From a virus, in IMG/VR virus record IMGVR_UViG_3300010413_000031, positions 1 through 61,999 of that record: a stretch of DNA of 61,999 bases, one strand, 5' to 3'. Each line of letters starts with the position of its first letter. Within the stretch, counting starts at the first letter, position 1. The translations under genes and the position numbers were made by a program. Positions 18,999 to 37,679 of the stretch are shown here, piece by piece. Under the pieces are notes generated by a model that worked only from the letters and a program-made list of their open reading frames with translations, was not told the origin of the DNA and did not search any database.

Positions 18999-18999
18999 C

Positions 19000-21702: not shown

Positions 21703-21918
21703 ATGGGCACCAGGACATACGCAGATGACGTGGCGTGGTTGGTTGAGACCTTCCATGACAGGCTGGAGTTGCTGGCTTCCGACGTGAGTCTGGATGATGG
21801 GAGGCTGTGGCTCACCCGGCGATGGTCAGAGCTTGGGCAGGGGGGTGGCACTATACGCGGCCGGGATATCATAGCGATCTTCGACTCATGGGAGAGCATA
21901 CGTAGGAAGAGCCCCTAG
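21703..21918 (+). CDS. Small unknown protein
   Basis: 71 residues from ATG 21703, 9 bases after AGGAGG; the ATG at 21694 touches the AGGAGG and is unlikely. Acidic and helical with a Gly-rich middle (WSELGQGGGTIRGRD). No known family. Its TAG stop provides the first G of the first copy of the repeated promoter element. Confidence 0.65.
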   Translation: MGTRTYADDVAWLVETFHDRLELLASDVSLDDGRLWLTRRWSELGQGGGTIRGRDIIAIFDSWESIRRKSP

Positions 21919-21949
21919 GGGGGTTGACCCGGAAGTTAACTTAGAGTGG
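21918..21949 (+). promoter_or_regulatory. Repeated 32-bp promoter element, copy 1
   Basis: GGGGGGTTGAC at positions 1-11, TAACTT at 20-25 (-10-like), G at 32 as likely transcription start. It drives the two-helix membrane protein at 21970. Confidence 0.7.
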
Positions 21950-21969
21950 ACCCCAAAGGGAGGTGGCTT

Positions 21970-22167
21970 ATGCCCTTAGAGGCAAAACTTCTGTTGACTG
22001 GCGTGCTGGCTGTGGTGGTTGGCGTGCTGGCTGTAATACCAGTAGTCATGCTGGATGATTGTGGGCTGCACCGTACGGCAGAGGCCTTCGGTGCGATAGC
22101 GTGCGTCCTACTGTGTGTGGGCGCTGCACTCGTCGTAGTGGATGCGCTCATACTGATCTGGCGATAG
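21970..22167 (+). CDS. Two-helix membrane protein
   Basis: 65 residues from ATG 21970, preceded by GGGAGG; an in-frame ATG at 21946 lies before the predicted transcription start and is rejected. Two hydrophobic helices (about residues 8-28 and 41-62) flank a short LDDCGLHRTAE loop. First gene after copy 1 of the promoter element, so probably early. Could act at the host membrane, for example in superinfection exclusion; unproven. Confidence 0.65.
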   Translation: MPLEAKLLLTGVLAVVVGVLAVIPVVMLDDCGLHRTAEAFGAIACVLLCVGAALVVVDALILIWR

Positions 22168-22182
22168 GAGAGGGAGACGACT

Positions 22183-22362
22183 ATGACAGACGATGAGAAG
22201 CAGGAGCTGGTCGATCTGCTCCAGATAGTCAGGTCGGCCCTATCATCCAACGTGAAGGCATTGTGGTCGAAGCCCCAATTCCGTGACATGCAGAAGAAGA
22301 CGGCCCTGTATGCCATAGAGAAGATAGATGCCTACCTAAATGCATTGCGGGAGGGGGGTTGA
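22183..22362 (+). CDS. 59-residue helical protein
   Basis: ATG 22183 follows GGAGAGGGAG. The product is acidic, then amphipathic (TDDEKQELVDLLQIVRSAL ... ALYAIEKIDAYLNAL), and ends Arg-Glu-Gly-Gly. The last codons and TGA stop are made from the next promoter element itself (GGGGGGTTGA). A copy of the CCAATTCC repeat lies inside and is read as KPQFR. Unknown function. Confidence 0.6.
   Translation: MTDDEKQELVDLLQIVRSALSSNVKALWSKPQFRDMQKKTALYAIEKIDAYLNALREGG
22271..22286. repeat. CCAATTCC element, copy 2
   Basis: AGCCCCAATTCCGTGA, here inside a coding region in frame K-P-Q-F-R. Seventeen bases, starting at 22270, are identical to copy 4, which is read in a different frame. Confidence 0.6.
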
Positions 22363-22384
22363 CCGCCGGGTTAAATTAGAATAG
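22353..22384 (+). promoter_or_regulatory. Repeated 32-bp promoter element, copy 2
   Basis: GGGGGGTTGAC, then TAAATT at 20-25, G at position 32 (22384). What follows is about 310 bases of non-coding structured sequence ending in a strong terminator. Confidence 0.75.
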
Positions 22385-22693
22385 GCCGAGGGCGACCGAA
22401 GCTGCGGCTTGAGGGATTAGTAGCACTCGCTGCCCCACGCACGCCTTAGGTCTTGGTGGACGGTATCGACCACGGGACCTGAGGCCATGCAGTCCTCACC
22501 GTTATGAAGAGCCTGAGCGCCCACTCGCCATAGGCACCGCAGAGCCTAGAGTGACGGGGAGCAAACTGTTCCTCGACCAGGTTTGCGCCTGGTCTCAGAA
22601 CATTAAGGCGTGCATCACGCATTAGCACGCTGCGTGGGTGGAGAGAAGGAAGCTAGTAGTGGGAAACTGGCCGGTCGCCCGGCCTTTTCTTTT
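22384..22693 (+). ncRNA. Candidate ~310-nt structured phage RNA
   Basis: No credible gene fits here. The region runs from a predicted start G of promoter copy 2 to an intrinsic terminator. Hairpins readable by eye: AAGC/GCTT; AGGTC...GACCT with inner GGTGG/CCAC; GGGGAGCA/TGTTCCTC; the perfect GACCAGG/CCTGGTC; GCGTG/CACGC and CACGC/GCGTG alternatives; then the terminator stem. I see no tmRNA, RNase P, 6S or tRNA signature. It might act as a regulatory or decoy RNA. Transcription and boundaries are inferred. Confidence 0.5.
22669..22693 (+). terminator. Strong rho-independent terminator of the candidate RNA
   Basis: GGCCGG pairs with CCGGCC across the loop TCGC, followed by TTTTCTTTT. Confidence 0.85.
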
Positions 22694-22711
22694 GCAAGGG
22701 AGGAGGGCATT

Positions 22712-22942
22712 ATGATGGACGCAGGTGGCAGGGAGGTAGTGGTGGGCTCGATAGTGGAGGTACTGGTCGCGCGTAAGGCTTTGGTGCGGGACATTACGTA
22801 TGCCGATCAGGGCGAGCCCATCGCTACACTACAGTGGCAGGACAACCCACACGACACAGCGAGGGTACTATGGAACCACCAAAGGGCAAGGCTACTGTAT
22901 CAGTCAGGCAAGGACAGCGGCTGTGGGCAGCGCTCAAGATAG
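22712..22942 (+). CDS. Small unknown protein
   Basis: 76 residues from ATG 22712 with GGGAGGAGGG upstream. Beta-rich (EVVVGSIVEVLVARKALVRDI) and suggestive of a small barrel such as an SH3 or KOW-like fold, but no family can be asserted. The C-terminal end overlaps the protease gene by 73 bases. Confidence 0.6.
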   Translation: MMDAGGREVVVGSIVEVLVARKALVRDITYADQGEPIATLQWQDNPHDTARVLWNHQRARLLYQSGKDSGCGQRSR

Positions 22943-23415
22943 CCCTTGAACGTGGCAGGAAGATCAAGCCCCAATTCCGCTGGGATACGCTTGGGGTGTA
23001 TGAGTCGCGTATCTTTCCCAAGGACAGCGAAACCATGGCCATACTGGTCTACTCTCCCACTAATGGCCACATCTTCATGAACGGGAGAGCTGCGGACGAG
23101 ATGCTTGCACAGGGTATGCTGATCCCGTGGGCTGTAGACATCCTGCTGCATGAGTTTGCTCATGCCATGGTAGCGGATGAGCACGGACCGAAAGTTCAGC
23201 CGCACGGAGTGGAGTGGCGGAGGCTGGCCCGAGAGCTGGGGTGTGTGCCCCAAGCCAGGGCCACGGATCATGAGCGGCTGCGCAGTTACAGCTGCATGAT
23301 AGTAGAGGAAGGAGGAAAGAAGAATGGCGTACGATTCACACTTAACGGCGATACGTCGGGGAAGAGCAAGCCGTCCGGGAAGAGCGTTGGTCGAGAAGAG
23401 ACTGGTTCCAGCTAA
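22870..23415 (+). CDS. SprT/WLM-like zinc metalloprotease
   Basis: 181 residues from ATG 22870 (GAGGG upstream). HEFAH at residues 94-98 is the zinc and catalytic motif, preceded by VDILL; further His residues at 105 and 112 are candidates for the third ligand. This matches SprT-like and WLM metalloproteases, which in eukaryotes (Spartan, Wss1) cut DNA-protein crosslinks. In a phage it could clear proteins from DNA or act on a host protein. It has no signal peptide, so it acts in the cytoplasm. The last 30 residues overlap the methyltransferase-like gene. Confidence 0.7.
   Translation: MEPPKGKATVSVRQGQRLWAALKIALERGRKIKPQFRWDTLGVYESRIFPKDSETMAILVYSPTNGHIFMNGRAADEMLAQGMLIPWAVDILLHEFAHAMVADEHGPKVQPHGVEWRRLARELGCVPQARATDHERLRSYSCMIVEEGGKKNGVRFTLNGDTSGKSKPSGKSVGREETGSS
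22967..22980. repeat. CCAATTCC element, copy 3
   Basis: AGCCCCAATTCCGC inside the protease gene, read as K-P-Q-F-R. Confidence 0.5.
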
Positions 23416-23926
23416 GGACGGCTGGGCTCGCTTCGTGCTGGACTACGGAGCGGGGTTCGGAGACGACGCACAGGCCCACGGCTGGCATGCCTATGACCCT
23501 AACTTCAGCAACATCAGCGAGTTACCGACGTGGCCAGCCAAGTTCGATTACATTGTATGCATCTACGTTCTCTGTGTGTGTACGCGTGATGAGATCGTGG
23601 ATATCATGGGCGACATACTCAGGCGCCTTCGTCCGGGGGGCGTAGCTTACTTCGCAGTACGCAGGGATGGGGGTCGCCAGCTTGGCGTGATCGAACGAGC
23701 AGGTGGGAAGCGCACCTACCAGAGTGATGTATACCTGGATCTGCCGCGTGTGCTCTCCACCTACGGCTTTGACATCTACGAGTGGAGGAAGGATGCGGGA
23801 CGCACGAACGATATTCATGAAGAGTGTGCGCGAGCCGAAGCTAGTGCCCTCATCAAATTTGTGGGTACTGAAGGCTGTGGCATACAACCAGAAGATGTCG
23901 GGAAGGAAGAGGAAGACGATCAGTAA
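23324..23926 (+). CDS. SAM-dependent methyltransferase-like protein
   Basis: 200 residues with AGGAGG upstream of ATG 23324. Motif I VLDYGAGFGDD (residues ~38-48), an acidic post-I strand end (AYDPN), then FDYIVCIYVLCVC and LRRLRPGGVAYFAVRRD match the class I SAM-methyltransferase order. No target-recognition domain is visible, so the substrate (DNA, RNA, protein or small molecule) is unknown. The C-terminal tail is acidic. It overlaps the next gene by about 110 bases. Confidence 0.65.
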   Translation: MAYDSHLTAIRRGRASRPGRALVEKRLVPAKDGWARFVLDYGAGFGDDAQAHGWHAYDPNFSNISELPTWPAKFDYIVCIYVLCVCTRDEIVDIMGDILRRLRPGGVAYFAVRRDGGRQLGVIERAGGKRTYQSDVYLDLPRVLSTYGFDIYEWRKDAGRTNDIHEECARAEASALIKFVGTEGCGIQPEDVGKEEEDDQ

Positions 23927-24476
23927 GGGCAGATGGAAGGGCATGCCCATGTACAACCTCACTCTGGAAGAGCGAGCCACATGCCCGACTGACTGTCCAC
24001 AGTGGGAGGACTGTTATGGTAACAACATGCCATACGCAGGACGTTATCAAGCTGGGCCAGATCTTGAAGGGGCTATTGCCAGAGATGTCGAGCATCTCAG
24101 TGGGAAGCACCCGGACGGTTTCGTTGTCAGACTCCACGTTCTGGGAGATTTTTACAGCGTGGGCTATGTCAGACTGTGGCTCGGCCTTGTGGAACGATAC
24201 CCTGCTCTTCGTGTATACGGATTCACACACCGGCAGCATGACACAGGTATCGGTGCGGAAGTATCCAGGGGGCAGGGTCCTCATTTTCGTATACTCAGAT
24301 CAGATCCAACAGTACCCGATGATCCACTCCCTGCTGCATGGACTCTTAAAGACGGGGAAGTGGGGGCGAGGCCTGATTCGGTGCTTTGCCCATGGTATAG
24401 CGGCAAGACTGAGAGTTGCCTCACCTGCGGGCTCTGTTGGAACGGAAGCATCAACGTCAGCTTCCCCAGACACTAG
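23817..24476 (+). CDS. Cys-rich protein resembling phage Gp88 family
   Basis: About 219 residues if ATG 23817 is used; ATG 23898 is also possible and neither has a good ribosome site. The sequence holds CPTDCPQWEDC followed by Tyr (residues ~56-67), a conserved-looking RLHVLGDFYS, and a C-terminal CPWYSGKTESCLTCGLC. The early Cys group, the LGDFYS strand and the late Cys group resemble the phage Gp88 family, whose biochemical role is unknown to me. Metal or Fe-S binding is likely from the cysteine spacing. Confidence 0.6.
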   Translation: MKSVREPKLVPSSNLWVLKAVAYNQKMSGRKRKTISKGRWKGMPMYNLTLEERATCPTDCPQWEDCYGNNMPYAGRYQAGPDLEGAIARDVEHLSGKHPDGFVVRLHVLGDFYSVGYVRLWLGLVERYPALRVYGFTHRQHDTGIGAEVSRGQGPHFRILRSDPTVPDDPLPAAWTLKDGEVGARPDSVLCPWYSGKTESCLTCGLCWNGSINVSFPRH

Positions 24477-24484
24477 GAGGTAGC

Positions 24485-24724
24485 ATGAGCGTAGAAATCA
24501 CGGAGGCCCCCAAGCAGTATGGAAGATGGATAATCTGGGGCTGGGCCCTTTTCTCAGGGCCTCAGGCTTATGTCTTCGACACGCAGGCAGAGTTGGATGC
24601 CTTCCTGTTTGGGTGCGAAGAGGCAAATGGATGGATGGAGTATGCAGTCTTCGAGACGAAGGAGGAAGCGATCAACCACATGAAGGAGAGGGGAGCATAT
24701 GAACAAGAAGGAGCAGAGACATAG
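24485..24724 (+). CDS. Small acidic protein
   Basis: 79 residues. ATG 24485 has a perfect AGGAGG upstream. Trp and aromatic rich (YGRWIIWGWALFSG) with an acidic helical end. No family recognised. It overlaps the next gene by 26 bases. Confidence 0.65.
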   Translation: MSVEITEAPKQYGRWIIWGWALFSGPQAYVFDTQAELDAFLFGCEEANGWMEYAVFETKEEAINHMKERGAYEQEGAET

Positions 24725-24977
24725 GCTGGAGCAGATGGTGCTCACAGCCAACACGCTCAAGTGGCGGCTCAAGCAGTCTGCTCTGTGGGCAGAGGAACTG
24801 GAGACATTCCTGCGTGAGCTGTATGAACAAGAAGAGGAAGCACAGGAGTTGGCCGAGAGGATAGAGGGCAACTATGTCGAAGCAAAACCGAGGCCTGCTG
24901 GGGCTGGAGAAGAAGATGCGTCTAGGTCTGACCGTGCCAGACCTGCCTGCATTGGCAGCCAAAAGAGCGAAGGGTAA
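24699..24977 (+). CDS. Small coiled-coil protein
   Basis: 92 residues from ATG 24699 (GAGGGG upstream). Residues 1-60 form a charged coiled coil (KKEQRHRLEQMVLTANTLKW, EELETFLRELYEQEEEAQEL). The last 30 residues look disordered and are also read in another frame by the following gene. Confidence 0.55.
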   Translation: MNKKEQRHRLEQMVLTANTLKWRLKQSALWAEELETFLRELYEQEEEAQELAERIEGNYVEAKPRPAGAGEEDASRSDRARPACIGSQKSEG

Positions 24978-25218
24978 GAAGGCCTGGCGCTTCTACTGGC
25001 CGGACAACTACACACCCGTCAAGCGTGAGGGCTGGCAGTGGGTATCCCAGCCGTTGACCAGCGGCAGGGAACTCAAGCTTCCACGCTACATGCAGGTGGG
25101 CTCGCACGGATACACACGCGTGGTGCCCAACAGACTGGAGAAGGTCATGGGCTGGCTCACCAAGCATGGTTTCACGGTCACATGGGAGGACAAGAATCAT
25201 GGCAAAGAGCAGGACTGA
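24874..25218 (+). CDS. Unknown protein, start uncertain
   Basis: 114 residues from ATG 24874; ATG 24916 is an alternative. The central part (KAWRFYWPDNYTPVKREGW, then a beta-rich stretch and a final helix RLEKVMGWLTKHGF) looks like a compact folded domain. Function unknown. Its start overlaps the coiled-coil gene by about 100 bases, which makes the N-terminus doubtful. Confidence 0.55.
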   Translation: MSKQNRGLLGLEKKMRLGLTVPDLPALAAKRAKGKKAWRFYWPDNYTPVKREGWQWVSQPLTSGRELKLPRYMQVGSHGYTRVVPNRLEKVMGWLTKHGFTVTWEDKNHGKEQD

Positions 25219-25381
25219 GGCTCAGATGGAGCTGTGGGAGGCGATGATCGAGTTCTATCGCTGGGGTGGAGGACAGGGTGAGATCCACCCATGGGTTGAG
25301 GGGGCGTACATCGACTACCGTAACCGGCGTGCAGCCGAGTCGAAGGAGAAGAGGGCCGATGAAAGCACCAGTTCCGAATGA
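25199..25381 (+). CDS. 60-residue unknown protein
   Basis: ATG 25199 follows GGGAGG by 9 bases and overlaps the previous gene by 20. Helical N-terminus with aromatic residues, charged C-terminus (AAESKEKRADE). No family recognised. Confidence 0.55.
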   Translation: MAKSRTEAQMELWEAMIEFYRWGGGQGEIHPWVEGAYIDYRNRRAAESKEKRADESTSSE

Positions 25382-25613
25382 AAGCCCCAATTCCGTGAGG
25401 CAAGGGAACCACGGCCCCAACCGGGCCAAGTCATTCGTGAGGGGCCGGAACAAGAATAAGCGGGCCGGGCGCAAGTATCCTAAGTTATTCAATTACAAGA
25501 GGATACGGCCCCGGTCCAGACATCTGCGACCAGGTATGAGGGTGCAGTCGCCCGACGGCAAGAAGTATGTCGTGGGTGTGCATGGTCAGCTCGTCAGGGT
25601 ATCGAGCTGGTGA
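25359..25613 (+). CDS. Small very basic protein
   Basis: 84 residues from ATG 25359. Very rich in Arg, Lys, Asn and Pro (GPNRAKSFVRGRNKNKRAGR), with a C-terminal beta-like segment (PDGKKYVVGVHGQLVRV) that recalls ribosomal-protein-like or KOW-type RNA-binding folds. Probably binds nucleic acid. It contains CCAATTCC copy 4, here read as S-P-N-S-V. Its stop TGA runs directly into promoter copy 3. Confidence 0.55.
   Translation: MKAPVPNESPNSVRQGNHGPNRAKSFVRGRNKNKRAGRKYPKLFNYKRIRPRSRHLRPGMRVQSPDGKKYVVGVHGQLVRVSSW
25382..25398. repeat. CCAATTCC element, copy 4
   Basis: AAGCCCCAATTCCGTGA, 17 bases identical to the copy at 22270-22286 but in a different reading frame, which points to conservation as DNA or RNA. 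Confidence 0.6.
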
Positions 25614-25645
25614 GGGGGGTTGCGGAGCGGGTTAAATTCAAACTG
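25614..25645 (+). promoter_or_regulatory. Repeated 32-bp promoter element, copy 3
   Basis: GGGGGGTTGCG variant of the first block, TAAATT at 20-25, G at 32. It lies inside a longer open frame, which is why ATG 25685 is taken as the start of the gene after it. Confidence 0.7.
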
Positions 25646-25684
25646 GTCGCGCCGCTCGAACCCCAATACAAACAGGAGGACATC

Positions 25685-26080
25685 ATGAGTGAGGAGAGGA
25701 CGCATACAGGACGGGTGAACCGAACGTGGAAGGAGGTCGTGCGTAGTGAAGCGAAGCTCGCCCGTATCCTACAGTGGAACAACCAAGACCTCAACAGGCA
25801 CCAGACGCAGATCACCAATCTGCAACGGAGAGTGGCCATGCTTGAGGCACGCCTTGATTACATACAGAGCAAGGCGGAGACGGTGACGCTGACAGAGAAG
25901 GCTAAGACAGCCCTATCGCAGCCGGTCGTGTTCATCACTGAGCATACCACCAGGAACCGTGGCGAGTGGGCCAAGCAAGTGAAGGGCGTGCTCGCAAGTC
26001 TGCTGCATGCATGGGACGAAGGTGATATCTACGCGTTCCTGGATGAGAACAACGGTGCGCTCAAGGATCTCCTGACGTAG
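25685..26080 (+). CDS. Coiled-coil protein
   Basis: 131 residues from ATG 25685 (AGGAGG upstream, downstream of promoter copy 3). Residues ~10-70 form a coiled coil (HQTQITNLQRRVAMLEARLD). A second helical part follows (GEWAKQVKGVLASLLHAW). No enzyme motif. Likely an oligomeric early protein; function unknown. Confidence 0.65.
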   Translation: MSEERTHTGRVNRTWKEVVRSEAKLARILQWNNQDLNRHQTQITNLQRRVAMLEARLDYIQSKAETVTLTEKAKTALSQPVVFITEHTTRNRGEWAKQVKGVLASLLHAWDEGDIYAFLDENNGALKDLLT

Positions 26081-26091
26081 GTGTGAGCTGA

Positions 26092-26123
26092 GGGGGGTTG
26101 ACGAGCGGCGCAAATTGGAGTTG
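26092..26123 (+). promoter_or_regulatory. Repeated 32-bp promoter element, copy 4
   Basis: GGGGGGTTGAC, CAAATT at 20-25, G at 32. Upstream of the membrane protein at 26174. Confidence 0.72.
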
Positions 26124-26173
26124 CGCCGGAAGCGGCACGCCACTCACCCATACCGAAGGGAGAGTAACATGTA

Positions 26174-26395
26174 ATGTCAGAGCTAGCTATACGGATCGCC
26201 ATACTCGCGTTCTTGCTGGCGATCTCGGGATTGTTGTTGTTGTTCACACACGTATTTGGCCCGCACCATCGGTCAGCCTCTGATGCATACTCCGAGCGCG
26301 GCTCGGCCAAGGCCTCTCATGCGTCTAACACCGAGCAGCCGGGCCACCAATCTTCTCCGCATGGGGCGGAGAGGGATGCATCCCAAAACCCATAA
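26174..26395 (+). CDS. Small membrane protein with polar tail
   Basis: 73 residues from ATG 26174 (GGGAGAG upstream; an ATG 5 bases earlier is followed at once by TAA). One or two hydrophobic helices cover residues 5-30, then a Ser, His and Gln-rich disordered tail of about 40 residues. Single-pass membrane protein of unknown role, probably early. Confidence 0.6.
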   Translation: MSELAIRIAILAFLLAISGLLLLFTHVFGPHHRSASDAYSERGSAKASHASNTEQPGHQSSPHGAERDASQNP

Positions 26396-26410
26396 GAGGG
26401 AGAGCACATC

Positions 26411-26944
26411 ATGAACGGACTCGACGCTTTCAAACAGAACGGCGGCAGCGCGCTGGCAGCCACTGACTTGATCAAGGTGTCGATCACCGGATCGCGCGGC
26501 GGCAAGGGCGCCGAGAAGATCAGCACCTACTTCGGTCCTGATGGGATCGAGCTAGATGCCGACTTCAATCCCAAGCCGCATGCCATGCCTCTCGATCTGA
26601 GTGGCGTGGCTGGTGCTGGCGGAGAAGCCAAGCAGCCCCCGGCCTTCCCTGAGGCGGAGTACAAGGCCGCCCTCAAGGAGAGCTTGGACAAGGCGCAGGC
26701 GATCCTCAGCGCCCACCAGCAGTCCTTGACGCAGTTCAAGGGTGGTGGCAACACCACTATCGAAGACGGCATCATCGATGCCTGTCTGCGGTACTGCTAC
26801 GACTACCTCAACTTCTCTGAGATCGACGACGCCACGAAGTTCGTCATCACTCGTAAGGACGTGGTCCTTGCGAAGGACTGGCGGAAGGTCAACGGCATCA
26901 ACCGGACCGTGTATGAGGTCAGGCTGGCCAGCCGGTTCGGTTAG
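26411..26944 (+). CDS. Unknown protein ahead of the E1-like locus
   Basis: 177 residues with GAGGGAGAG upstream. The N-terminal half is beta-rich (DLIKVSITGSRGGKG, EKISTYFGPDGIEL), with a Pro/Gly/Ala linker in the middle. The C-terminal half is helical with paired cysteines (DACLRYCYDYLNF) and a final strand region. I do not recognise it. It is separated from the E1-like locus by a strong terminator, so co-transcription with it is unlikely. Confidence 0.65.
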   Translation: MNGLDAFKQNGGSALAATDLIKVSITGSRGGKGAEKISTYFGPDGIELDADFNPKPHAMPLDLSGVAGAGGEAKQPPAFPEAEYKAALKESLDKAQAILSAHQQSLTQFKGGGNTTIEDGIIDACLRYCYDYLNFSEIDDATKFVITRKDVVLAKDWRKVNGINRTVYEVRLASRFG

Positions 26945-27040
26945 TCGTAGCACAGGAGAAGGGTCAGCCTATGGCTTAGCGGTCAGAACAGGCCGATAGA
27001 TCGGATGTGAATCCGCTATGCTACGCATGTAACACCCGCT

Positions 27041-27073
27041 GGGGGCAGGCCCATGTCTGCCCCCTCTCTTTTT
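27041..27073 (+). terminator. Strong rho-independent terminator
   Basis: GGGGGCAG pairs perfectly with CTGCCCCC across an 8-base loop, followed by TCTCTTTTT. It separates the gene at 26411 from the E1-like locus. Confidence 0.88.
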
Positions 27074-27093
27074 CATACGCGCAGGAGGCAACA

Positions 27094-28737
27094 ATGAAGG
27101 TAGCTCAAGAGCCTAAGACGAAGGACGAACAGCAGGCGAAGAACCTGAGACTGAGCAGCTATATCTGCCCCATCTGCCAGAGCTACATGGCTAGGCAGCA
27201 CTACACGAAGCAGGGCACTCGCTATGAGATCGAGTACAATATGTGTGGCTGCCCGCCTGTCTATGGTCTGGTCTGGCGCAACGACAGTCAGCGACAGGGC
27301 AGGTACTACCACAACCGATGGCTGTGGATGCCTAACGGCAAGTCGCAGCTATACCATGGCCAGAGGTCGCCGGGTCGATGGATCAACGTGCATACCGATG
27401 AGCCCGTAGCCAAGCCAGACTGGATGCGATGGCTCAAGGTGCCCATCATCATTGACCGCTCGTCGGGGCGGGAGTTCAAGGCATTGGTGGAGATCGAAGG
27501 TGAACAGCGGCTTGTCGATTGCATCGGCACGAACAGGCCGGGGCTGTACCATGCCTTGTGTGTGAATCCGCCTGTAGACTACTGGGAAGGGCTGCCAGGT
27601 TTAAGTGCGAAGAGACTGGCCATGTATAAGGAAAAGCTGAGGGTTGTGAATAAGCATCTGGTGATCGTGCCCAAGGCACATCGCAAGAGGTATGCTCGCA
27701 CCCCTCATGCCAAGGGGGTCACCCTAACCACGATCCATACCAAGGATCAGGGTCGGGGCAAGTATGAGGAGTTCATCCCCCGCTGGTCAGTCAGGGAGTT
27801 CGGCATAGAGAAGTGGCAGTTCGTCTCCAAGGATGTGATAGAGGACGACGGCAAGAAGCGAGAGACGATCCTCAGATACAAGAAGCCGCACGAGAGCGAT
27901 GCCCTGATTGGTCAGCAGTCAGGCGCAAATGCATGGTGTCATACTCCAATACACCCCTGTGAGTGGGAGACTGACCCACGCCAAGGGTACAAGGCCGTCC
28001 GAGCACACCTTGATGACTACGGCTTCGAGCACTTGCACATAGATTGGATACAGCGCAGGTTCCTGTTCTACACGTCTGACGGGAACCGCAAGACTCAGGT
28101 AGGACAGATCAAGCACCCCGACCCTATGTGGGGCAGCGCCAAGAGAATCCTGTTGTGGGCCGACGAGTGCTGGGCCATGCAGCTCAGTGCTCAGGCAGAT
28201 AATGGGGTGTGGCGCATGGTCACGCCAGGTATGCTGTTCGTGGCTGATGACATGACATTCATCGCCACCTACCAGTGCCTGCGAATAGGTCAGAGCCTGA
28301 CTGAGTATCGAGCGGGCATCAATCTCTATGCCCCTCACGCGGCACCCATGTCATTGGCTGATTTCATCACTGGTCCGCTATCTGATTACTGGGACAGCAA
28401 GGGCAACATCAAGTTGATCCGGCCCCAGATTCAGATGGTCAGGGCCAAGGAAGTGGCTACGACTGGCGACCTACAGAAGGCGCTGCTGGATAAGATACAG
28501 AAGAAGTATGAGGGCTTCCTGCTCATACAGGGCTGGGTCATATCCTATGTCACCTGCCCTCTCTGCGGTTACCATTTGCACCACTTGGTCTATGACAAGG
28601 AGAAGCAGGCCATCAAGGAGTGCAGCAACTGTGGCAAGGCAGGTATCGAGCTGAGTATGGAGGCAACCACCCACTTCATTACATCAGAGGGGCCACTCAA
28701 CAAGGTGCTGTCCAAGAAAGGAGCCAAGATAGCATGA
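27094..28737 (+). CDS. Large protein with zinc-ribbon-like ends, coupled to the E1-like gene
   Basis: 547 residues from ATG 27094 (GGAGG upstream); the upstream open frame runs through a terminator and is rejected. Cys pairs lie at both ends: CPIC and CGC near residues 24-55, and CPLC with CSNC near 490-515, each zinc-ribbon-like. A segment TPGMLFVADDMTFIATYQ leading to GINLY loosely recalls the strand order around the active site of bacterial E2-like proteins, but I see no cysteine at the expected place, so that reading is speculative. Its TGA overlaps the ATG of the ThiF gene (ATGA), so the two are made together. Confidence 0.7.
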   Translation: MKVAQEPKTKDEQQAKNLRLSSYICPICQSYMARQHYTKQGTRYEIEYNMCGCPPVYGLVWRNDSQRQGRYYHNRWLWMPNGKSQLYHGQRSPGRWINVHTDEPVAKPDWMRWLKVPIIIDRSSGREFKALVEIEGEQRLVDCIGTNRPGLYHALCVNPPVDYWEGLPGLSAKRLAMYKEKLRVVNKHLVIVPKAHRKRYARTPHAKGVTLTTIHTKDQGRGKYEEFIPRWSVREFGIEKWQFVSKDVIEDDGKKRETILRYKKPHESDALIGQQSGANAWCHTPIHPCEWETDPRQGYKAVRAHLDDYGFEHLHIDWIQRRFLFYTSDGNRKTQVGQIKHPDPMWGSAKRILLWADECWAMQLSAQADNGVWRMVTPGMLFVADDMTFIATYQCLRIGQSLTEYRAGINLYAPHAAPMSLADFITGPLSDYWDSKGNIKLIRPQIQMVRAKEVATTGDLQKALLDKIQKKYEGFLLIQGWVISYVTCPLCGYHLHHLVYDKEKQAIKECSNCGKAGIELSMEATTHFITSEGPLNKVLSKKGAKIA

Positions 28738-29495
28738 AGATCGCACTCATAGGCTGCGGGTTCCTTGGCTCGATCTGGCTCGAAGAGGTAGCCAAACGCC
28801 TGTTTGCTCTGGAGCGGGAGAATGTACACCTGCTGCTGATAGACAAGGATACCTTCGAGCGTAGGAACGCAGCCAATCAGAATTTCCGGCCACTCGTCCT
28901 GCATGTCTCAGGGAAGATGGAACAGCATACCCCGGCCAAGGCAGAGTACCTGAGCCGCATGGCATGGGACTATGGTATCTCTGCTGAGTGGCAGAAAGCA
29001 GACATCATAGACGATCCAGGCCTACTGTTAGGGGCGCAGCTGATCGTCGATGCTCTCGACAACTTGCCAGCCAGACATGCTGTGTGGAAGCAGGGCATGG
29101 CTCAAGGAACACCGATCCTGCACATGGGTATCAATGAGCATGGGACAGGAGAGGTCGAGTGGACTTGGGCCACGGTACAAGGCTGGCACCTGTCTCCCAT
29201 CAAGCTGGGAGCGCAGTCCATAGATAAACTGGAAGAGCAGCCCAAGCATCCACCCTGCCACTTGGTTCAGATGCGTGGGCTGGGGCTGAACCTTGGGCTG
29301 GCAGCCGCCAAGGCAACCACCCTATTCATTGGGGAGGACATAGAGGAGACGTTCGATGAGGGTCCCCAGCTACCTGGATACGGCCTGCTTACCTATTGGC
29401 TTGCTGATAGGCAGAGTCATTCACTCGACACGGAGAGGATTCATGTCAAAAAAGAAGGGCAAGAACTCCCAGAAGCAGAAGGAGCCGCAGCGTAA
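28734..29495 (+). CDS. E1-like ThiF/MoeB-family adenylating enzyme
   Basis: 253 residues, ATG overlapping the preceding stop. The E1 features are in order: IGCGFLGSIW (nucleotide loop, residues ~5-14), LLIDKDTFERRNAANQNF (Asp for ribose and the Asn/Gln region), a Lys in KAEYL, and IVDALDNLPARHAV with the conserved D-x-x-D-N-x-x-x-R. A Cys in PPCHLVQM could be the thioester residue. Such enzymes activate the C-terminal Gly of a ubiquitin-like or ThiS/MoaD protein. No ThiS or MoaD is seen nearby. It overlaps the next gene by 53 bases. Confidence 0.8.
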   Translation: MKIALIGCGFLGSIWLEEVAKRLFALERENVHLLLIDKDTFERRNAANQNFRPLVLHVSGKMEQHTPAKAEYLSRMAWDYGISAEWQKADIIDDPGLLLGAQLIVDALDNLPARHAVWKQGMAQGTPILHMGINEHGTGEVEWTWATVQGWHLSPIKLGAQSIDKLEEQPKHPPCHLVQMRGLGLNLGLAAAKATTLFIGEDIEETFDEGPQLPGYGLLTYWLADRQSHSLDTERIHVKKEGQELPEAEGAAA

Positions 29496-31372: not shown

Positions 31373-31378
31373 CGGCTA

Positions 31379-31410
31379 GGGGGGTTGACACCCGGCTCAA
31401 ATTGGGGACG
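31379..31410 (+). promoter_or_regulatory. Repeated 32-bp promoter element, copy 5
   Basis: GGGGGGTTGAC, CAAATT at 20-25, G at 32. A terminator-like hairpin overlaps its 3' end. Confidence 0.72.
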
Positions 31411-31431
31411 GAGCAGTTGGCCGTCCCCTTT
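31404..31431 (+). terminator. Terminator hairpin overlapping promoter copy 5
   Basis: GGGGACGG (31404-31411) pairs with CCGTCCCC (31421-31428), then TTT. Transcripts arriving from upstream would form the whole stem, while a transcript begun at 31410 lacks its 5' arm, so the site can end one unit and start the next. Confidence 0.6.
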
Positions 31432-31457
31432 CACATCCTAACCGGAAGGAGCACCGT

Positions 31458-31772
31458 ATGTATTACCTATTGGTGGGGATAGCTGGTGCCTTCATTGGTG
31501 CGCTGGTTGTCTCATGGAACACGGGGAGCATGGTGAAGGACATCCTGCAAATGAGTATCAACGTCACCAAGCAGTACGAGACGTTGGTGACTGAGATGCT
31601 TAAGGCATGGAGACACACTCTCACCATGCTTGAAGGGCTTGGCCAAGAGATGGAAGAGCAGGCCGAGCAGATCGAGATGGCTGTGGCTGATCTATGGGAG
31701 GCGATACCCCAAGAGATTGAGGACGACGGACCCATCGGCATGGACGACACTCCGGTAGTGCGGGGAGCGTAA
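31458..31772 (+). CDS. Membrane-anchored coiled-coil protein
   Basis: 104 residues. Hydrophobic segment at residues 3-20, then a long helix with heptads (EMLKAWRHTLTMLEGLGQEM, EEQAEQIEMAVADLWEAI) and an acidic tail. First gene behind promoter copy 5. Function unknown. Confidence 0.62.
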   Translation: MYYLLVGIAGAFIGALVVSWNTGSMVKDILQMSINVTKQYETLVTEMLKAWRHTLTMLEGLGQEMEEQAEQIEMAVADLWEAIPQEIEDDGPIGMDDTPVVRGA

Positions 31773-31775
31773 GCT

Positions 31776-32006
31776 ATGAAGTGGCATAGACTTACGAGAG
31801 AGACAGGTCTGATAGAGTGGGTCTGTGAGCACGGAATCGGGCACCCGGACGCAGACAGCTGCGTTCATGTAGCCCGAGTCATGGCAGAACGCTATCCTGA
31901 CGGGGGACATACAGCAGACGTTTGGTCGGTGCATGGATGCGACGGATGCTGCTGTCGAGATGACTTCCCCGGCTACTTCAAAGGGAATGGCGTCGAGCCT
32001 GAATAG
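31776..32006 (+). CDS. Small His/Cys-rich protein
   Basis: 76 residues with GGGGAG upstream. Several His and Cys (WVCEHGIGHPDADSCVH, CDGCCC) suggest zinc binding. No family recognised. Its stop is followed by the AGGAGG that serves the phosphoesterase gene. Confidence 0.6.
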   Translation: MKWHRLTRETGLIEWVCEHGIGHPDADSCVHVARVMAERYPDGGHTADVWSVHGCDGCCCRDDFPGYFKGNGVEPE

Positions 32007-32016
32007 GAGGTGGACG

Positions 32017-32562
32017 TTGCGAGTAATATTCATAGCCGACCTGCACCTTGGACACAGGACGGTGATGCGCCACACAAGGAAAGTCAAGGGAGCCTATAGA
32101 GGGCAGGTTACAGACTTCATGGTTGACCCCGAAGATCCCAATGAAGTGAAGAGGCACGATGCATGGGTGATAGAGCAGTTGCATAGCATCAAGCCAGACA
32201 AGAGGACGCTGTGGTGGATGTTGGGGGACGTAGCCTTCACTCTTGAGGGATTGCACATGATCCGTAGCCTGCCCGGCAGAAAGAAGCTGGTGCTGGGCAA
32301 CCATGACAAGTTCCATTGGTCGGCGTATACCAAGGTGTTCGAGTCCTTGCACGGCACCGTCAAGCAATACGGTCTGTGGATCAGTCATGTGCCGGTGCAT
32401 GAGACAGAGCTGTACCGGGCACCCAACATTCACGGACATGCCCATCACAATCAACTGCGGGACGACCCACGATACCTGAACGTGTGCATTGAGTGGGTTA
32501 AGCGTCCCCTCTCACTGGAAGAGGTTAGGGAATACTTCAAGCAGGAGGCAGGACATGGGTAA
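32017..32562 (+). CDS. Calcineurin-like metallophosphoesterase (TTG start)
   Basis: 181 residues. TTG 32017 is chosen because AGGAGG lies 6 bases upstream and the first residues then form the expected beta strand and metal motif FIADLHLGH; the ATGs further upstream lie in the previous gene. The remaining motifs are complete: LGDVAF, LGNHD, HVPVH and NIHGHAH. The compact form is typical of phage and YfcE-like phosphodiesterases. The substrate is unknown; cyclic nucleotides, RNA 2',3'-phosphates or defence second messengers are possible. It overlaps the next gene by 8 bases. Confidence 0.85.
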   Translation: MRVIFIADLHLGHRTVMRHTRKVKGAYRGQVTDFMVDPEDPNEVKRHDAWVIEQLHSIKPDKRTLWWMLGDVAFTLEGLHMIRSLPGRKKLVLGNHDKFHWSAYTKVFESLHGTVKQYGLWISHVPVHETELYRAPNIHGHAHHNQLRDDPRYLNVCIEWVKRPLSLEEVREYFKQEAGHG

Positions 32563-33004
32563 TCTAGGCATGGGGTACATGATAGAGATGTTGGGTGGCT
32601 ACAGGGATGCGCTCAAGGCATGGGAGAATGTGCATGGCAAGGAGATCACACGCCTGAGCATGAACCCTGACGCTAATGATGGAGACGGCGCCCTGTACAT
32701 AGAGGTTGAGGGTGGCGTAGCCATTGAAGTGATGGACAAGGCGCGGAGCTGCTGTGAGTCCAGGTATTTGGAGTGTGATGATGATCTGGGCGACTTCATC
32801 GGTGGCGACCTGCTCGACATAGAAGTGAGTGAGCGCCCCTCAACAGAGGATGAGGACGGACATGGCGTGGTCGAGTGTGCGTTCATGGTCGTACGCACAT
32901 CCATCGGTGCGTTCACTGTGTCCTCATACAACAGGCACAATGGGTACTACGGGGGGATATTCATAACCGTTCGGTCTGTCGAACCATACAAGGAGGACAA
33001 TTAG
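32555..33004 (+). CDS. DUF7448-like small phage protein
   Basis: 149 residues from ATG 32555 (GGAGGCAGG upstream). ARSCCES, then DLGDFIGGDLLDIE, then VRTSIGAFTVSSYNRHNGYY match the Cys-Cys-Glu, GDL-x-x-L/F-IG and (S/H)NGYY pattern I associate with DUF7448 phage proteins. The function of that family is unknown to me. Acidic, no membrane segment. Confidence 0.55.
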   Translation: MGNLGMGYMIEMLGGYRDALKAWENVHGKEITRLSMNPDANDGDGALYIEVEGGVAIEVMDKARSCCESRYLECDDDLGDFIGGDLLDIEVSERPSTEDEDGHGVVECAFMVVRTSIGAFTVSSYNRHNGYYGGIFITVRSVEPYKEDN

Positions 33005-33005
33005 C

Positions 33006-33365
33006 ATGGACATCTTGGAGGATGGAAAGACCGTGCAACAGTGTCGTGTCCATCAGCTCACCTTCGCTTGGTGGTGGTTGATAACCCTCAGGTGGAGCAA
33101 GAGTGGCTGGCGTGACTGGTGGTGCTTCAACCTCAGTCCACAGCTTGGGCTCAGCCTGACATTGGACAGGACAGGGATGAACGGAGATCGGCTTCAGGAC
33201 GGGGTGCAGAACATCGAGATCACTCTCAGTCTTGTGTTCGTGACCCTGTCCCTTGACTACTGCTATTATCCGCCCGCTCTCAGGGACAAGCAGATGCGGA
33301 TGTGGCAGGAGATGGGCTACACCGTCGTTGACAAGAAAGGGAGGCCGGTTGATGAGCAGGCGTAG
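33006..33365 (+). CDS. Unknown Trp-rich protein
   Basis: 119 residues, ATG 33006 one base after the previous stop. Trp-rich N-terminus (FAWWWLITLRW, WRDWWCFNL), then beta-rich, then a helix with YTVVDKKGR. It resembles small beta-sheet proteins encoded beside other phage accessory genes, but I can give no family. It overlaps the next gene by 14 bases. Confidence 0.6.
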   Translation: MDILEDGKTVQQCRVHQLTFAWWWLITLRWSKSGWRDWWCFNLSPQLGLSLTLDRTGMNGDRLQDGVQNIEITLSLVFVTLSLDYCYYPPALRDKQMRMWQEMGYTVVDKKGRPVDEQA

Positions 33366-33675
33366 CGTCATATGGCGCAAGAAGTTAGGGCATCGAGAGG
33401 AAGAGCCGGGCAGGAGTGTGAAGCACCATCGCAAGGGGAGTCAGTGTGGTGGTGATCTCGGCAAGCTGGAACAATGCATGCCCAGCAGGGTAGTCAAGTC
33501 AGACGGCAAGACTAGCTTCAAGCACTACACCTATGATCCTCAGACGGGGGAGATCACAGGTGTGACGCTGCACCGTGGACGTGAGAGCAGGGGCGTGGTT
33601 GGCACACGCCCCATGTCTGAGGGCAAGCGTCAGCGTGTGCTGTCCAAGCTGGGCAAGAAAGGTTGGCAAGCATGA
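33352..33675 (+). CDS. Small basic protein
   Basis: 107 residues from ATG 33352 (GGAGG 7 bases upstream). Highly basic with a beta-like centre (KTSFKHYTYDPQTGEITGV) and a Lys/Arg-rich tail, so nucleic acid binding is likely. Function unknown. It overlaps the next gene by 4 bases. Confidence 0.6.
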   Translation: MSRRSVIWRKKLGHREEEPGRSVKHHRKGSQCGGDLGKLEQCMPSRVVKSDGKTSFKHYTYDPQTGEITGVTLHRGRESRGVVGTRPMSEGKRQRVLSKLGKKGWQA

Positions 33676-33902
33676 ACGACGAGAAGCGGTATTATCACAG
33701 CATGATCGTGACGCAGATTGACAAGCCGCCGTCCAATTACACGAAGGTCAGGAACGTGAAGATCATAGATGGGCGCCTCTTCTTCGTGGTGGACGAGAAC
33801 AAGCGGTGCCCAACCTGCGGTCAGCTCCGTGAGCGGGAGCAGGAGCTGTCCTTCGCCCGCGACTGGATAAGTATCTTGCTAACCAACGCAGGGGGAGAAT
33901 AG
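33672..33902 (+). CDS. Small protein with one CxxC knuckle
   Basis: 76 residues from ATG 33672. Beta-rich N-terminal half, a single zinc-knuckle-like CPTCG near residue 46, then a helix. One CxxC alone would need a partner to bind zinc. Function unknown. Confidence 0.6.
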   Translation: MNDEKRYYHSMIVTQIDKPPSNYTKVRNVKIIDGRLFFVVDENKRCPTCGQLREREQELSFARDWISILLTNAGGE

Positions 33903-33903
33903 T

Positions 33904-34071
33904 ATGACTGAGTATGAGCATGTGTGCAGCAACTGCCTGCATACCGTCTATAACATGGACCCCCGCAAGCCCGGCACATGCTCTAAGTGCGGTAGCATGG
34001 ATGTTCGTCACTTTCCGGCAGGTAAGTGCCCCGTGCCGCCGGAAACCAGTACCTCAGGGGAGAGTGTATGA
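33904..34071 (+). CDS. 55-residue zinc-ribbon protein
   Basis: ATG 33904 lies just after the previous stop with GGGGGAG upstream. Two cysteine pairs, CSNC (residues 8-11) and CSKCG (about 28-32), make a short zinc ribbon; the tail is Pro, Thr and Ser rich. Such mini-ribbons bind nucleic acid or RNA polymerase in other phages. That role is inference. Confidence 0.62.
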   Translation: MTEYEHVCSNCLHTVYNMDPRKPGTCSKCGSMDVRHFPAGKCPVPPETSTSGESV

Positions 34072-34121
34072 TTTCTGATGGACCCACGATTCGTCAAGCC
34101 TCACAACCCGGAGAGAATCAC

Positions 34122-34625
34122 ATGTGTAGACTAGTTGGTGTACTCGTTGCGGTAGTACTACTCGCCGCATGCTCGGAGACCCCCACTCAACAGCAGGAAG
34201 GGTTGTCTCTGATCGCTCCTTCCTTTGATTACATCACCTGTGATGGATCAGTTTTCACACAAGCAGAGTGCGACAAGATCGCCGACGCGATTTCCGACCT
34301 CTACGGCTCAGGAGAAGGCGACTGCATCTGGGCTGGAGCTACTGGGTACAACAGGTCGTGGTCGGAGACGAGCTACTTCTCGGAAGGAGGAGATGAAGGA
34401 GCTACGGGCAACTTCTCCTGCTGGGAGTCCGAAGAAGGTTGCATGTACGACCCAGAGGAATATCTAGGTCCTGGAGTCAGCTACATCAGTAGGGACTGGC
34501 ACTTGTGTGGGACTCCTCAATGTCAGAAAGATTTGCGGGGAGCAATCGCGCACAATGAGTGGGGACTCGCAGGAATGGACCTCGAATTTCAGCAGGAAGT
34601 GTTCGAGCTCTGCCGCGAAATCTGA
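34122..34625 (+). CDS. Phage-encoded Cys-rich lipoprotein
   Basis: 167 residues from ATG 34122 (GGAGAG upstream; ATG 34068 is a longer alternative). The signal peptide is short and classic, with hydrophobic VGVLVAVVLLAAC as the lipobox (LAAC), so the mature protein begins at a lipidated Cys followed by Ser-Glu-Thr. The mature part has eight further cysteines, probably disulfide bonded, and is acidic. Lipoproteins in phage early regions often block receptor access or DNA entry of rival phages (for example T5 Llp). That role is inference here. Confidence 0.75.
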   Translation: MCRLVGVLVAVVLLAACSETPTQQQEGLSLIAPSFDYITCDGSVFTQAECDKIADAISDLYGSGEGDCIWAGATGYNRSWSETSYFSEGGDEGATGNFSCWESEEGCMYDPEEYLGPGVSYISRDWHLCGTPQCQKDLRGAIAHNEWGLAGMDLEFQQEVFELCREI

Positions 34626-34766
34626 AGTGGCAGAAGGACAACTGTAGTTACAACGTAACAGTCGTAGGGTCCATCAGAAACATGCGAGAAGGCGAAGCCA
34701 CGCACTAGACATGAACCCTTCACTTATAGGAGGCACGTTGAAGGACAGTTGACCACATCTTGATTC

Positions 34767-34781
34767 AGCACCAATTCCGCG
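34767..34781. repeat. CCAATTCC element, copy 5
   Basis: AGCACCAATTCCGCG in a non-coding gap. Confidence 0.5.
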
Positions 34782-34790
34782 TGGCTCCCA

Positions 34791-34860
34791 GGCCCTGCGT
34801 GTGTATGTCATCCAATGGTGGCGGGCCATTGATGTATACGCGCAGGGCCGCCTTTATTTA
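34791..34860 (+). terminator. Long branched hairpin, possible terminator
   Basis: GGCCCTGCG (34791) pairs perfectly with CGCAGGGCC (34841). Inside, AATGG/CCATT forms a second hairpin. CCTTTATTTA follows. It could end upstream transcripts or be a stable RNA element. Confidence 0.55.
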
Positions 34861-34880
34861 TACGCGCGTGTCTGGGGGTA

Positions 34881-34912
34881 GGGGGGTTGCGCTGTCGCTT
34901 AGATTAGATAAG
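34881..34912 (+). promoter_or_regulatory. Repeated 32-bp promoter element, copy 6
   Basis: GGGGGGTTGCG variant, TAGATT at 20-25, G at 32. Confidence 0.7.
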
Positions 34913-34963
34913 CGCCGGGCCGACGGTCGGCCCCCACCACATACCACACACGGGAGAGAGCCA

Positions 34964-35275
34964 ATGGGACAGAAGGTTATCACACATGAGGCTGCCGCCA
35001 GAATCGCGCTGCTCGTAGGGCATATCCTCTGCGACTTGGCTGGCAATCGCTACCGGGGTTTCGGCATCCACTACACCACATGGCTGGAACAGTGCGGGGT
35101 CGTGCCCGATGAAGAGGGCGAGCTGCCCGAGATCGAGACGATACTCAGTCAGCTTGTCAAGCATTACCGCAACAAGAAGGGGTGCAGTAGTGACCCATGC
35201 GCTGTGTCATGGGTAGTTCGTGAGGCGTTCAAACAGTTGGGCCTAGACCTAGAAGGGGGTGAGCTACTGTGTTGA
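34964..35275 (+). CDS. Unknown protein
   Basis: 103 residues from ATG 34964 (GGGAGAGAG upstream). Helical, with HEAAARIALLVGHILCDLAG and a later CSSDPCAVSW. No family recognised. First gene behind promoter copy 6. Confidence 0.62.
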   Translation: MGQKVITHEAAARIALLVGHILCDLAGNRYRGFGIHYTTWLEQCGVVPDEEGELPEIETILSQLVKHYRNKKGCSSDPCAVSWVVREAFKQLGLDLEGGELLC

Positions 35276-35484
35276 CATCGAGCCTAGTCACCAAGATGCG
35301 GGCGTTGGTGAGCCTGCATGAGGACGGCGGGCCAATGGCTGGGACGGAGCGTGCAGAGGCGGAGCTGGACCTCATGCATGAGATACACACCGAGCTGGAA
35401 GCGGTGCTTATTCCGTCCGGGCTGACGGCCCACCTGGTATTCACACGCGGCATCAAGAAGGGGGGTGAGAGCAAATGTCATTGA
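35269..35484 (+). CDS. Small unknown protein (GTG start likely)
   Basis: 71 residues from GTG 35269, which overlaps the previous stop; ATG 35287 is an alternative. Helical and acidic (GTERAEAELDLMHEIHTELE). It overlaps the next gene by 10 bases. Unknown function. Confidence 0.55.
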   Translation: MLTSSLVTKMRALVSLHEDGGPMAGTERAEAELDLMHEIHTELEAVLIPSGLTAHLVFTRGIKKGGESKCH

Positions 35485-35696
35485 TGTGGCATGACGGACC
35501 CACAGAGCGTGACATCGAGCGATTGAAGCTCATGCAGGACGCGCACAAGCTCCGCAAGGCATGGGTCGGGCACACACATCAGGAGCCGGGCTTGTTCGAG
35601 ACATGGGGTGAGGCTGCCCGCGTAGCTATCCCATGGGTTGCGCTAGGCATTGTGGTGACGGCCACGGTGCTAGGCATCTATGCATTGGTGAAGTAG
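35475..35696 (+). CDS. Tail-anchored membrane protein
   Basis: 73 residues. Charged helix first (ERDIERLKLMQDAHKLRKAW), then one hydrophobic segment at residues ~52-71 (VALGIVVTATVLGIYALV) and a terminal Lys. The stop TAG supplies the first G of promoter copy 7. Confidence 0.62.
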   Translation: MSLMWHDGPTERDIERLKLMQDAHKLRKAWVGHTHQEPGLFETWGEAARVAIPWVALGIVVTATVLGIYALVK

Positions 35697-35727
35697 GGGG
35701 GTTGACTGGCCGCCTAGATTGGGACAG
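35696..35727 (+). promoter_or_regulatory. Repeated 32-bp promoter element, copy 7
   Basis: GGGGGGTTGAC, TAGATT at 20-25, G at 32. Confidence 0.74.
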
Positions 35728-35765
35728 CGAGTCGAGCCAACCACCAACCCCTAGCAGGAGAGTGC

Positions 35766-35981
35766 ATGATGCGTACCATTGATCAGAATGCCCTACAGGA
35801 TGCGGACCACCGCAGGGCATACCGTGAGCTGGCCAAGGACATGGACGATCAACGCTTGTGTGATGTTGTCGGCAAGGTCGCCGCAAACCTTGGCCACCAA
35901 GGCAATACCGGATCGTCTGAGGCTGTGTATGAGTTGCTGCGGCGGTACGGCAAGCTCTATCACATGGAGGGCACCAAATGA
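35766..35981 (+). CDS. Small helical protein
   Basis: 71 residues; ATG 35766 or 35769, with AGGAGAG upstream. All-helical and charged (DHRRAYRELAKDMDDQRLCD). The stop overlaps the next ATG (ATGA). Unknown function. Confidence 0.6.
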   Translation: MMRTIDQNALQDADHRRAYRELAKDMDDQRLCDVVGKVAANLGHQGNTGSSEAVYELLRRYGKLYHMEGTK

Positions 35982-36184
35982 TCCACCGCATACCTGAGCC
36001 TGAGCAAGGCAGCCCCGATCCCCGTGAATGGGTCGACCCCATGGAATTGGTGGACCGGATTGATGAGTGCCCGCAAGTGGCCATCTTGCAGGGGGTTAGC
36101 GACTCCTGCCAAAATGGCATGCCAAGAGAAGTGGGCACAAGGGAAGAGGACCAACCACATCACTTTAACCGGGGCCAGCTATGA
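35978..36184 (+). CDS. Small unknown protein
   Basis: 68 residues, coupled to the previous gene through ATGA. Acidic first half rich in Pro and Asp, then two Cys; polar end. No family recognised. Confidence 0.5.
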   Translation: MIHRIPEPEQGSPDPREWVDPMELVDRIDECPQVAILQGVSDSCQNGMPREVGTREEDQPHHFNRGQL

Positions 36185-36249
36185 TGTTGGCCCTCACATT
36201 CTTAGCGTTGCTCGTAATCGCTTCGGGCACCCATTCCGACTGGCGCTGA
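36181..36249 (+). CDS. 22-residue hydrophobic peptide
   Basis: ATG 36181 overlaps the previous stop (ATGA). The product, MMLALTFLALLVIASG plus a short polar end, is a single hydrophobic helix. Coupling is the only support for translation. Confidence 0.3.
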   Translation: MMLALTFLALLVIASGTHSDWR

Positions 36250-36261
36250 CCCCATACATAG

Positions 36262-36288
36262 GCGCGCACGCGCACGCACGCGCGTATA
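36262..36288. other. 27-base strictly alternating purine-pyrimidine tract
   Basis: GC, CA and GT steps alternate without a break from 36262 to 36288, a sequence type prone to left-handed (Z) DNA under negative supercoiling. It ends 6 bases before promoter copy 8. Confidence 0.6.
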
Positions 36289-36294
36289 GCGGCA

Positions 36295-36326
36295 GGGGGG
36301 TTGACAGCGCCACTACCTTGGAAAAG
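36295..36326 (+). promoter_or_regulatory. Repeated 32-bp promoter element, copy 8
   Basis: GGGGGGTTGAC, TACCTT at 20-25, G at 32. A GCGGC/GCCGC hairpin follows in the leader. Confidence 0.7.
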
Positions 36327-37554: not shown

Positions 37555-37587
37555 GCTCATCTCCCCCAACTAGACCTACAGAGTGCC

Positions 37588-37627: not shown

Positions 37628-37679
37628 CTCAGATTCGGGGGCTTGTCAAGGGTTGGGGGTGGATGGCCCCCAAGGGACC

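Follow-up and report, generated by a model that had tools for sequence, protein, structure and literature searches.

Sigma adaptation is known from a few actinobacterial activators. PafBC promoters carry the sequence tTGTCRgtg followed, after 8 nt, by a TAnnnT −10 (PMC5656591); PafB binds this −26 motif and PafC binds domain 4 of the sigma factor (PMC11804915). SiwR, another WYL activator, also relies on the −26 region (PMC10693628), and the boxes of SARP activators end 8 bp from the −10 (PMC10936776). The motif of WhiA is GACAC (PMC3781837), and in phage T4, MotA boxes take the place of the −35, their distance from the −10 being fixed (PMC2988021). Here, a 32-bp element is described that occurs eight times in a 62-kb virus record without end repeats (IMG/VR record IMGVR_UViG_3300010413_000031; this whole stretch of 61,999 nucleotides is called the window). 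Each copy (E1 to E8) heads a transcription unit, and the core of the element is shared, at the same spacing, with a conserved site before one gene of Acidimicrobiia and with a second, unrelated phage. The elements are most likely a new variant of activator-dependent promoters, with a testable link to that bacterial gene.

The 32-bp element and what it precedes

The eight copies had been listed in an earlier note on this DNA, and all were found at exactly the positions given there, all on the plus strand. They align without gaps as A-GGGGGG-TTG-(AC)-N8-(T/C)A-n-n-TT-N6-G, with rigid spacing. The sequence GGGGGGTTG at positions 1-9 shows no variation among the copies, and A21, T24, T25 and G32 are identical in all eight, as had been reported; the (T/C)A at 20-21 and the TT at 24-25 hold likewise, with T20 in six copies and CAnnTT in two. 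Position 0, directly 5′ of the G-run and absent from the earlier list, is an A in every copy. The AC at positions 10-11, described as usual, is present in six of the eight; E3 and E6 have TTGCG instead of TTGAC. Agreement is 6/8 at positions 10, 11, 17, 20, 23, and 28 and 7/8 at position 27.

A weight matrix made from the eight copies gave them 34.7-46.2 bits, whereas no other place in the window, on either strand, exceeds 8.8. In 40 dinucleotide shuffles, the full pattern was found 0 times and the top matrix score was 23.8. As the matrix was trained on these same copies, a test conditioned on the G-run is fairer: given the eight AGGGGGGTTG sites, four invariant columns were found in positions 10-60 where 0.007 were expected (p ~8e-11). 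No invariant column was found upstream of the copies (−60 to −1), which bears out the claim that a −35 is lacking. The sequence AGGGGGTTGAC occurs once more, with five G, at 13285-13323, just before a cluster of 25 tRNAs; it forms the left arm of an intrinsic terminator there and was excluded as a further element.

The copies are confined to the accessory region at 21.7-36.6 kb, on the coding strand and between genes, often right on the preceding stop codon. Seven are non-coding wholly or bar one base, and the eighth overlaps the end of the gene before it by 10 bases; the probability of all eight lying so by chance is ~3e-8. That each stands right before a small gene or an RNA was confirmed: seven copies precede a gene, and the eighth, E2, precedes a structured RNA of ~309 nt. 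In the seven, a start codon with a ribosome-binding site lies 46-77 bases past the TTG, the Shine-Dalgarno start being 21-52 bases 3′ of G32.

E1 (21917..21949, plus strand as are all others; −10 TAACTT at 21937-21942, predicted start G21949) heads the genes 21970-22167 and 22183-22362. E2 (22352..22384; TAAATT at 22372-22377, predicted start G22384) stands at the head of the structured RNA and perhaps also of the genes from 22712. The TTGCG variant E3 (25613..25645; TAAATT at 25633-25638, predicted start G25645) stands before gene 25685-26080, and E4 (26091..26123; CAAATT at 26111-26116, predicted start G26123) before genes 26174-26395 and 26411-26944, downstream of which a terminator is located at 27041-27064. 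E5 (31378..31410; CAAATT at 31398-31403, predicted start G31410) stands before the run of genes 31458-34625. The second TTGCG variant, E6 (34880..34912; TAGATT at 34900-34905, predicted start G34912), heads the genes 34964-35696, E7 (35695..35727; TAGATT at 35715-35720, predicted start G35727) those at 35766-36184, and E8 (36294..36326; TACCTT at 36314-36319, predicted start G36326) gene 36371-36625.

The RNA or leader behind E2 (22384-22692, plus strand) has its predicted start at G32 and ends in an intrinsic terminator consisting of a hairpin (22669-22684) and a T-rich tail. Its ~309 non-coding bases fold 4.9 standard deviations better than shuffled sequences (z = −4.9), and comparison with Rfam gave no family match. 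Instead of the terminator hairpin, a pairing of 22673-22684 with the first bases from G32, GGCCGAGGGCGACC, can form; in this predicted alternative, the 5′ end is paired with the loop and the 3′ arm of the terminator. As the folded sequence had been cut at G32, this pairing supports a start at G32 without proving it. Because its 5′ end is able to pair with the terminator, the RNA could act on the genes from 22712 as an attenuator-like leader.

A second short repeat, AAGCMCCAATTCCG, is present in the same accessory region on the plus strand at 21672, 22270, 22966, 25363, 25382, 34766, and 36724. It comprises three exact 14-mers and near copies, which differ in reading frame and of which some are intergenic.

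The layout in Acidimicrobiia and in a second phage

With a pattern built on the TTGAC copies, 257 Gb of genomes were scanned and 12 single matches were obtained. The two top matrix scores among them, 34.0 and 28.3 bits, belong to orthologous sites in two Acidimicrobiia genomes (L173, L180). Both sites directly precede a small gene that is followed by a gene which, from a reading of its protein, we take to be SURF1-like. The promoter sequence is MAWLWSDDLARLL..., and no description of this promoter was found in the literature consulted. The small gene was sought in 138 Acidimicrobiia genomes and was present in 34, for which 30 upstream regions were read. TTGAC lay within reach in 26 of these. 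TA at +13 and T at +18 are present in all 26 orthologues and G at +25 in 24, counted without conditioning on the bases past TTGAC; flanking bases are mostly variable. These positions equal 20-21, 25, and 32 of the phage element, and start codons follow 42-81 bases downstream. Conversely, the phage copies carry the TTG, A21, T25, and G32 of the Acidimicrobiia layout in all eight cases, and T20, A10, and C11 in six each.

The conservation in the 26 orthologues indicates that TTGAC-N8-TAnnnT-N6-G is a bacterial promoter layout and a functional unit. The full G-run is found in two of the 26 only, the two picked up by the scan, and is, judging by these sequences, the phage's own addition to the bacterial core. 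The unit proposed earlier thus stands as an element, with slightly different borders: the transferable core runs from TTGAC to G32, and the G-run is a phage-specific extension. TTGAC-N8-TAnnnT was ruled out as a general promoter of Acidimicrobiia, being nearly confined to one gene. In 59 genomes, the strict form of the layout was mostly found before the small gene, and 364 kb of Acidimicrobiia sequence contained two copies, both at that place.

The exact element was not found in IMG/VR: the strict pattern gave 0 matches and a looser one 49 single matches, never multiple. Among the contigs fetched with looser patterns was G186, a viral contig of 63.6 kb and 63% GC (loci L358-L361). It is unrelated to the virus studied here; only one of 53 window proteins, the phosphoesterase, has a match there. 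G186 contains 12 copies of TTGAC-N8-TAnnnT, compared with 0-3 at every other spacing from 3 to 25 and 0-3 in shuffles. In the scan made, eight of the 12 are followed, after 46-120 bases, by a start codon that has a ribosome-binding site; the predicted start-site G is present in eight of the 12, and the common form is TTGACGnnnGCGATAnnCTG. A similar trend was seen in a 13-kb viral locus (L406) with four copies. In the other viral loci fetched with these patterns, used as a control with the selecting match removed, spacing 8 was not in excess (25 vs ~28); in the set fetched with the G186 form, 31 were counted at this spacing vs ~20.

Distant kin of the virus, found by the terminase, were also searched for the element, and the matches equaled those of a reversed control; in five of these records, the gapped words that recur include nothing comparable to it. 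Spacing 8 occurred 57 times in this kin against an average of ~33, but the counts of 68 for spacing 17 and 51 for spacing 11 make this excess weak. In the podovirus L062 (MW202795), the 9-mer CCTACAGGG occurs 10 times along the plus strand, ~96-fold over the expectation from base composition.

Mechanism, rival explanations, and the virus

We consider it reasonably probable that the eight elements are promoters for host RNA polymerase and an activator, with the geometry of sigma adaptation, and that the phage has multiplied a layout of its host. Host RNA polymerase with a housekeeping-type main sigma factor would read the −10 (TAnnTT, positions 20-25), and transcription would begin at G32, so that A21, T25, and G32 would correspond to −11, −7, and +1. 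The activator would bind the box at −31 to −21 (AGGGGGG-TTGAC), within the normal spacer, with 8 bp between the end of the core TTGAC and the −10. As a usable −35 is lacking, opening of the promoter would depend on this activator, which would replace or reposition region 4 of the sigma factor. The core is common to a conserved promoter of Acidimicrobiia, and the phage has therefore most likely taken a layout already present in its host and multiplied it; by adding the invariant G-run, it would switch on one set of accessory genes and one structured RNA at the same time. The activator may be a host protein or an unrecognized phage protein; the former is preferred, since the core is found both in bacteria and in an unrelated phage. 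Promoter function, a −10 at 20-25, and a start at G32 had all been proposed earlier and are supported. The idea of an extra factor reading an upstream box at fixed spacing is likewise retained. Its specificity for the phage is not, as the core stands before one gene in 26 Acidimicrobiia genomes and has the sole enriched spacing in G186.

The same kind of promoter might instead use a small DNA-binding protein encoded by the phage, comparable to MotA/AsiA of T4, with the host promoter merely resembling it. All phage copies have the G-run, which is missing from 24 of the 26 orthologues, many small phage proteins belong to no known family, and the MotA boxes, which take over from the −35 at a constant distance to the −10, provide a precedent (PMC2988021). 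This alternative nevertheless seems doubtful: no helix-turn-helix or activator family was detected among the phage proteins scanned, bar one weak match to sigma region 4 inside a phosphoesterase of the virion gene block, and the TTGAC core, the 8-bp gap, and the G at +1 are common to bacteria and an unrelated phage. A search for WYL proteins (PF13280) in the phage gave 0 matches, the control being positive in seven genomes, and WhiB was not found in the phage either. A phage-specific sigma factor or single-subunit RNA polymerase reading the whole 32 bp, as suggested earlier, would fit the high information content, the fixed spacing, and the missing −35, but is improbable. No sigma factor region above the cut-off was found in the 62-kb window, and the single-subunit polymerase family (PF00940) had 0 matches there, as it had in the control genomes; in all, ~69 kb of the genome was seen. 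Moreover, the −10 box is ordinary and the core is also bacterial. A virion polymerase of the N4 type was considered in the giant protein, for which no convincing match in the PDB was obtained.

Repeated asymmetric sites are also known as stoperators in Cluster A mycobacteriophages (PMC9283540), and operators for a phage repressor could be scattered over the accessory region in a similar way. That all eight copies point in the same direction and stand immediately 5′ of genes, the −10-like box and the G being at fixed distance, makes this quite improbable, as do the lack of a repressor or integrase among the phage proteins scanned and the occurrence of the host counterpart as one site only, in front of one gene. 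An element acting as RNA, in antitermination, in processing, or as a conserved hairpin, is the least probable of these explanations. Some copies contain inverted repeats, and downstream C-runs pair with the G-run somewhat better than chance, a weak effect; however, no consensus structure was found among the copies, half-swaps between them give p values of 0.02 to 0.5, and unconserved bases interrupt the conserved ones.

Several points weigh against host polymerase with a host activator. The element, its spacing, its place before genes, and the layout shared with bacteria and a second phage are observed; promoter activity, the start, the activator with its host origin, and the host itself are inferred. 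The box differs in sequence from that of PafBC, and the search of the phage for sigma, WYL, and WhiB proteins yielded no activator. Two of the eight phage copies do not have the TTGAC of the bacterial layout. That layout is nearly limited to one gene of Acidimicrobiia, which is odd for a factor on which a phage would rely. Finally, it was the phage pattern that led to the Acidimicrobiia site, and its orthologues share ancestry and are not independent; their conservation played no part in selecting the site.

It is quite possible, and proposed here tentatively, that actinobacteria and their phages have an undescribed class of activator-dependent promoters, defined by TTGAC exactly one helical turn nearer to the −10 than a normal −35, read by a sigma-adaptation factor and used by at least two unrelated phages (eight and 12 copies). 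The layout is rare elsewhere, yet is present before an Acidimicrobiia gene and in a second virus, which suggests that these viruses exploit a little-known way of activating bacterial RNA polymerase. If so, two unrelated phages with eight and twelve promoters would be examples of viruses exploiting sigma adaptation. The shared core, a 30-bp sequence together with one conserved gene, offers a concrete bait for finding the factor, and also a clue to the host of a phage without close relatives in the collections searched.

No close relatives of the virus were found in phage records or IMG/VR. The contig G001, with the IMG number 3300010412, is 99.97% identical to it over the last 18.5 kb of the window and extends it by 7.4 kb, which brings the genome covered to about 69 kb; the extension contains no further copies of the element. 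The DNA polymerase, terminase, and capsid proteins have 20-30% identity to those of podoviruses, among them Arthrobacter phage Jasmine and ctEqG8. Both of these phages have genes for WhiB-like proteins. This likeness hints at an actinobacterial host and proves nothing; the host is probably an actinobacterium, perhaps of the Acidimicrobiia. The DNA polymerase region (16393-20037) is spread over three frames: a uracil-DNA-glycosylase domain with the exonuclease and first polymerase matches (16393-18318), a 231-aa open reading frame without assigned family (18303-18998), and the rest of the polymerase (19000-20037). A ThiF-like adenylyltransferase at 28620-29495 is flanked by proteins of 547 and 479 aa without family assignment. 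On the minus strand at 37592-37649, a near-consensus TTGACA-16-TATTAT and a second TATTAT surround an inverted repeat and precede a gene of that strand, 37219-37560; they represent a promoter class of the ordinary type within this genome.

Comparison with known promoter systems

Compared with the standard sigma-70/sigma-A promoter, the phage copies have the TAnnnT −10 with a start 7 bp past the last T (A21, T25, and G32 in 8/8; the start is predicted), but not the TTGACA-like −35 at 16-18 bp from the −10. Their TTGAC lies one helical turn nearer to the −10 than a canonical −35 (7 bp here vs 17 bp in TTGACA-N17), which is offered as an observation and not as an explanation. The C-terminal domain of WhiA reportedly resembles sigma region 4; WhiA was rejected as the reader of the element, since GACAC is present in only one of the eight copies (E5).

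The middle promoters of T4, which depend on MotA and AsiA (sigma appropriation), resemble the phage elements in that a box at fixed distance replaces the −35 and several copies head genes. The MotA box, (a/t)(a/t)(a/t)TGCTTtA at 12 ± 1 bp from the −10, differs from the phage box GGGGGGTTGAC, the core of which ends at 8 bp, and the phage layout is also present in bacteria. The SARP activator AfsR of Streptomyces provides another likeness: 8 bp separate the 3′ repeat of its box from the −10, and the activator provides the surface on which sigma region 4 sits. SARP boxes are, however, direct repeats 11 or 22 bp apart, whereas the phage element has no conserved second repeat, nothing being conserved upstream of position 0.

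In PafBC promoters of actinobacteria (RecA-NDp), as in the phage, the −26 box ends 8 nt before TAnnnT, a functional −35 is lacking, and the −10 is of the housekeeping type. This spacing is found as TTGAC-N8-(T/C)AnnTT in six of the eight phage copies, and all eight are in the same register. The box itself is different, with GGGGTTGAC in the phage instead of tTGTCRgtg, and a search of the phage revealed no PafBC-like protein. Matches to tTGTCRgtg in the window are below chance and none is located at an element, and the elements are therefore not members of the PafBC class. The promoter of the small gene of Acidimicrobiia has TTGAC-N8-TAnnnT-N6-G and similar leader lengths in common with the phage copies; it differs from them in the full G-run (2/26), in a −10 that is often TAYGGT-like, and in the presence of one copy per genome.

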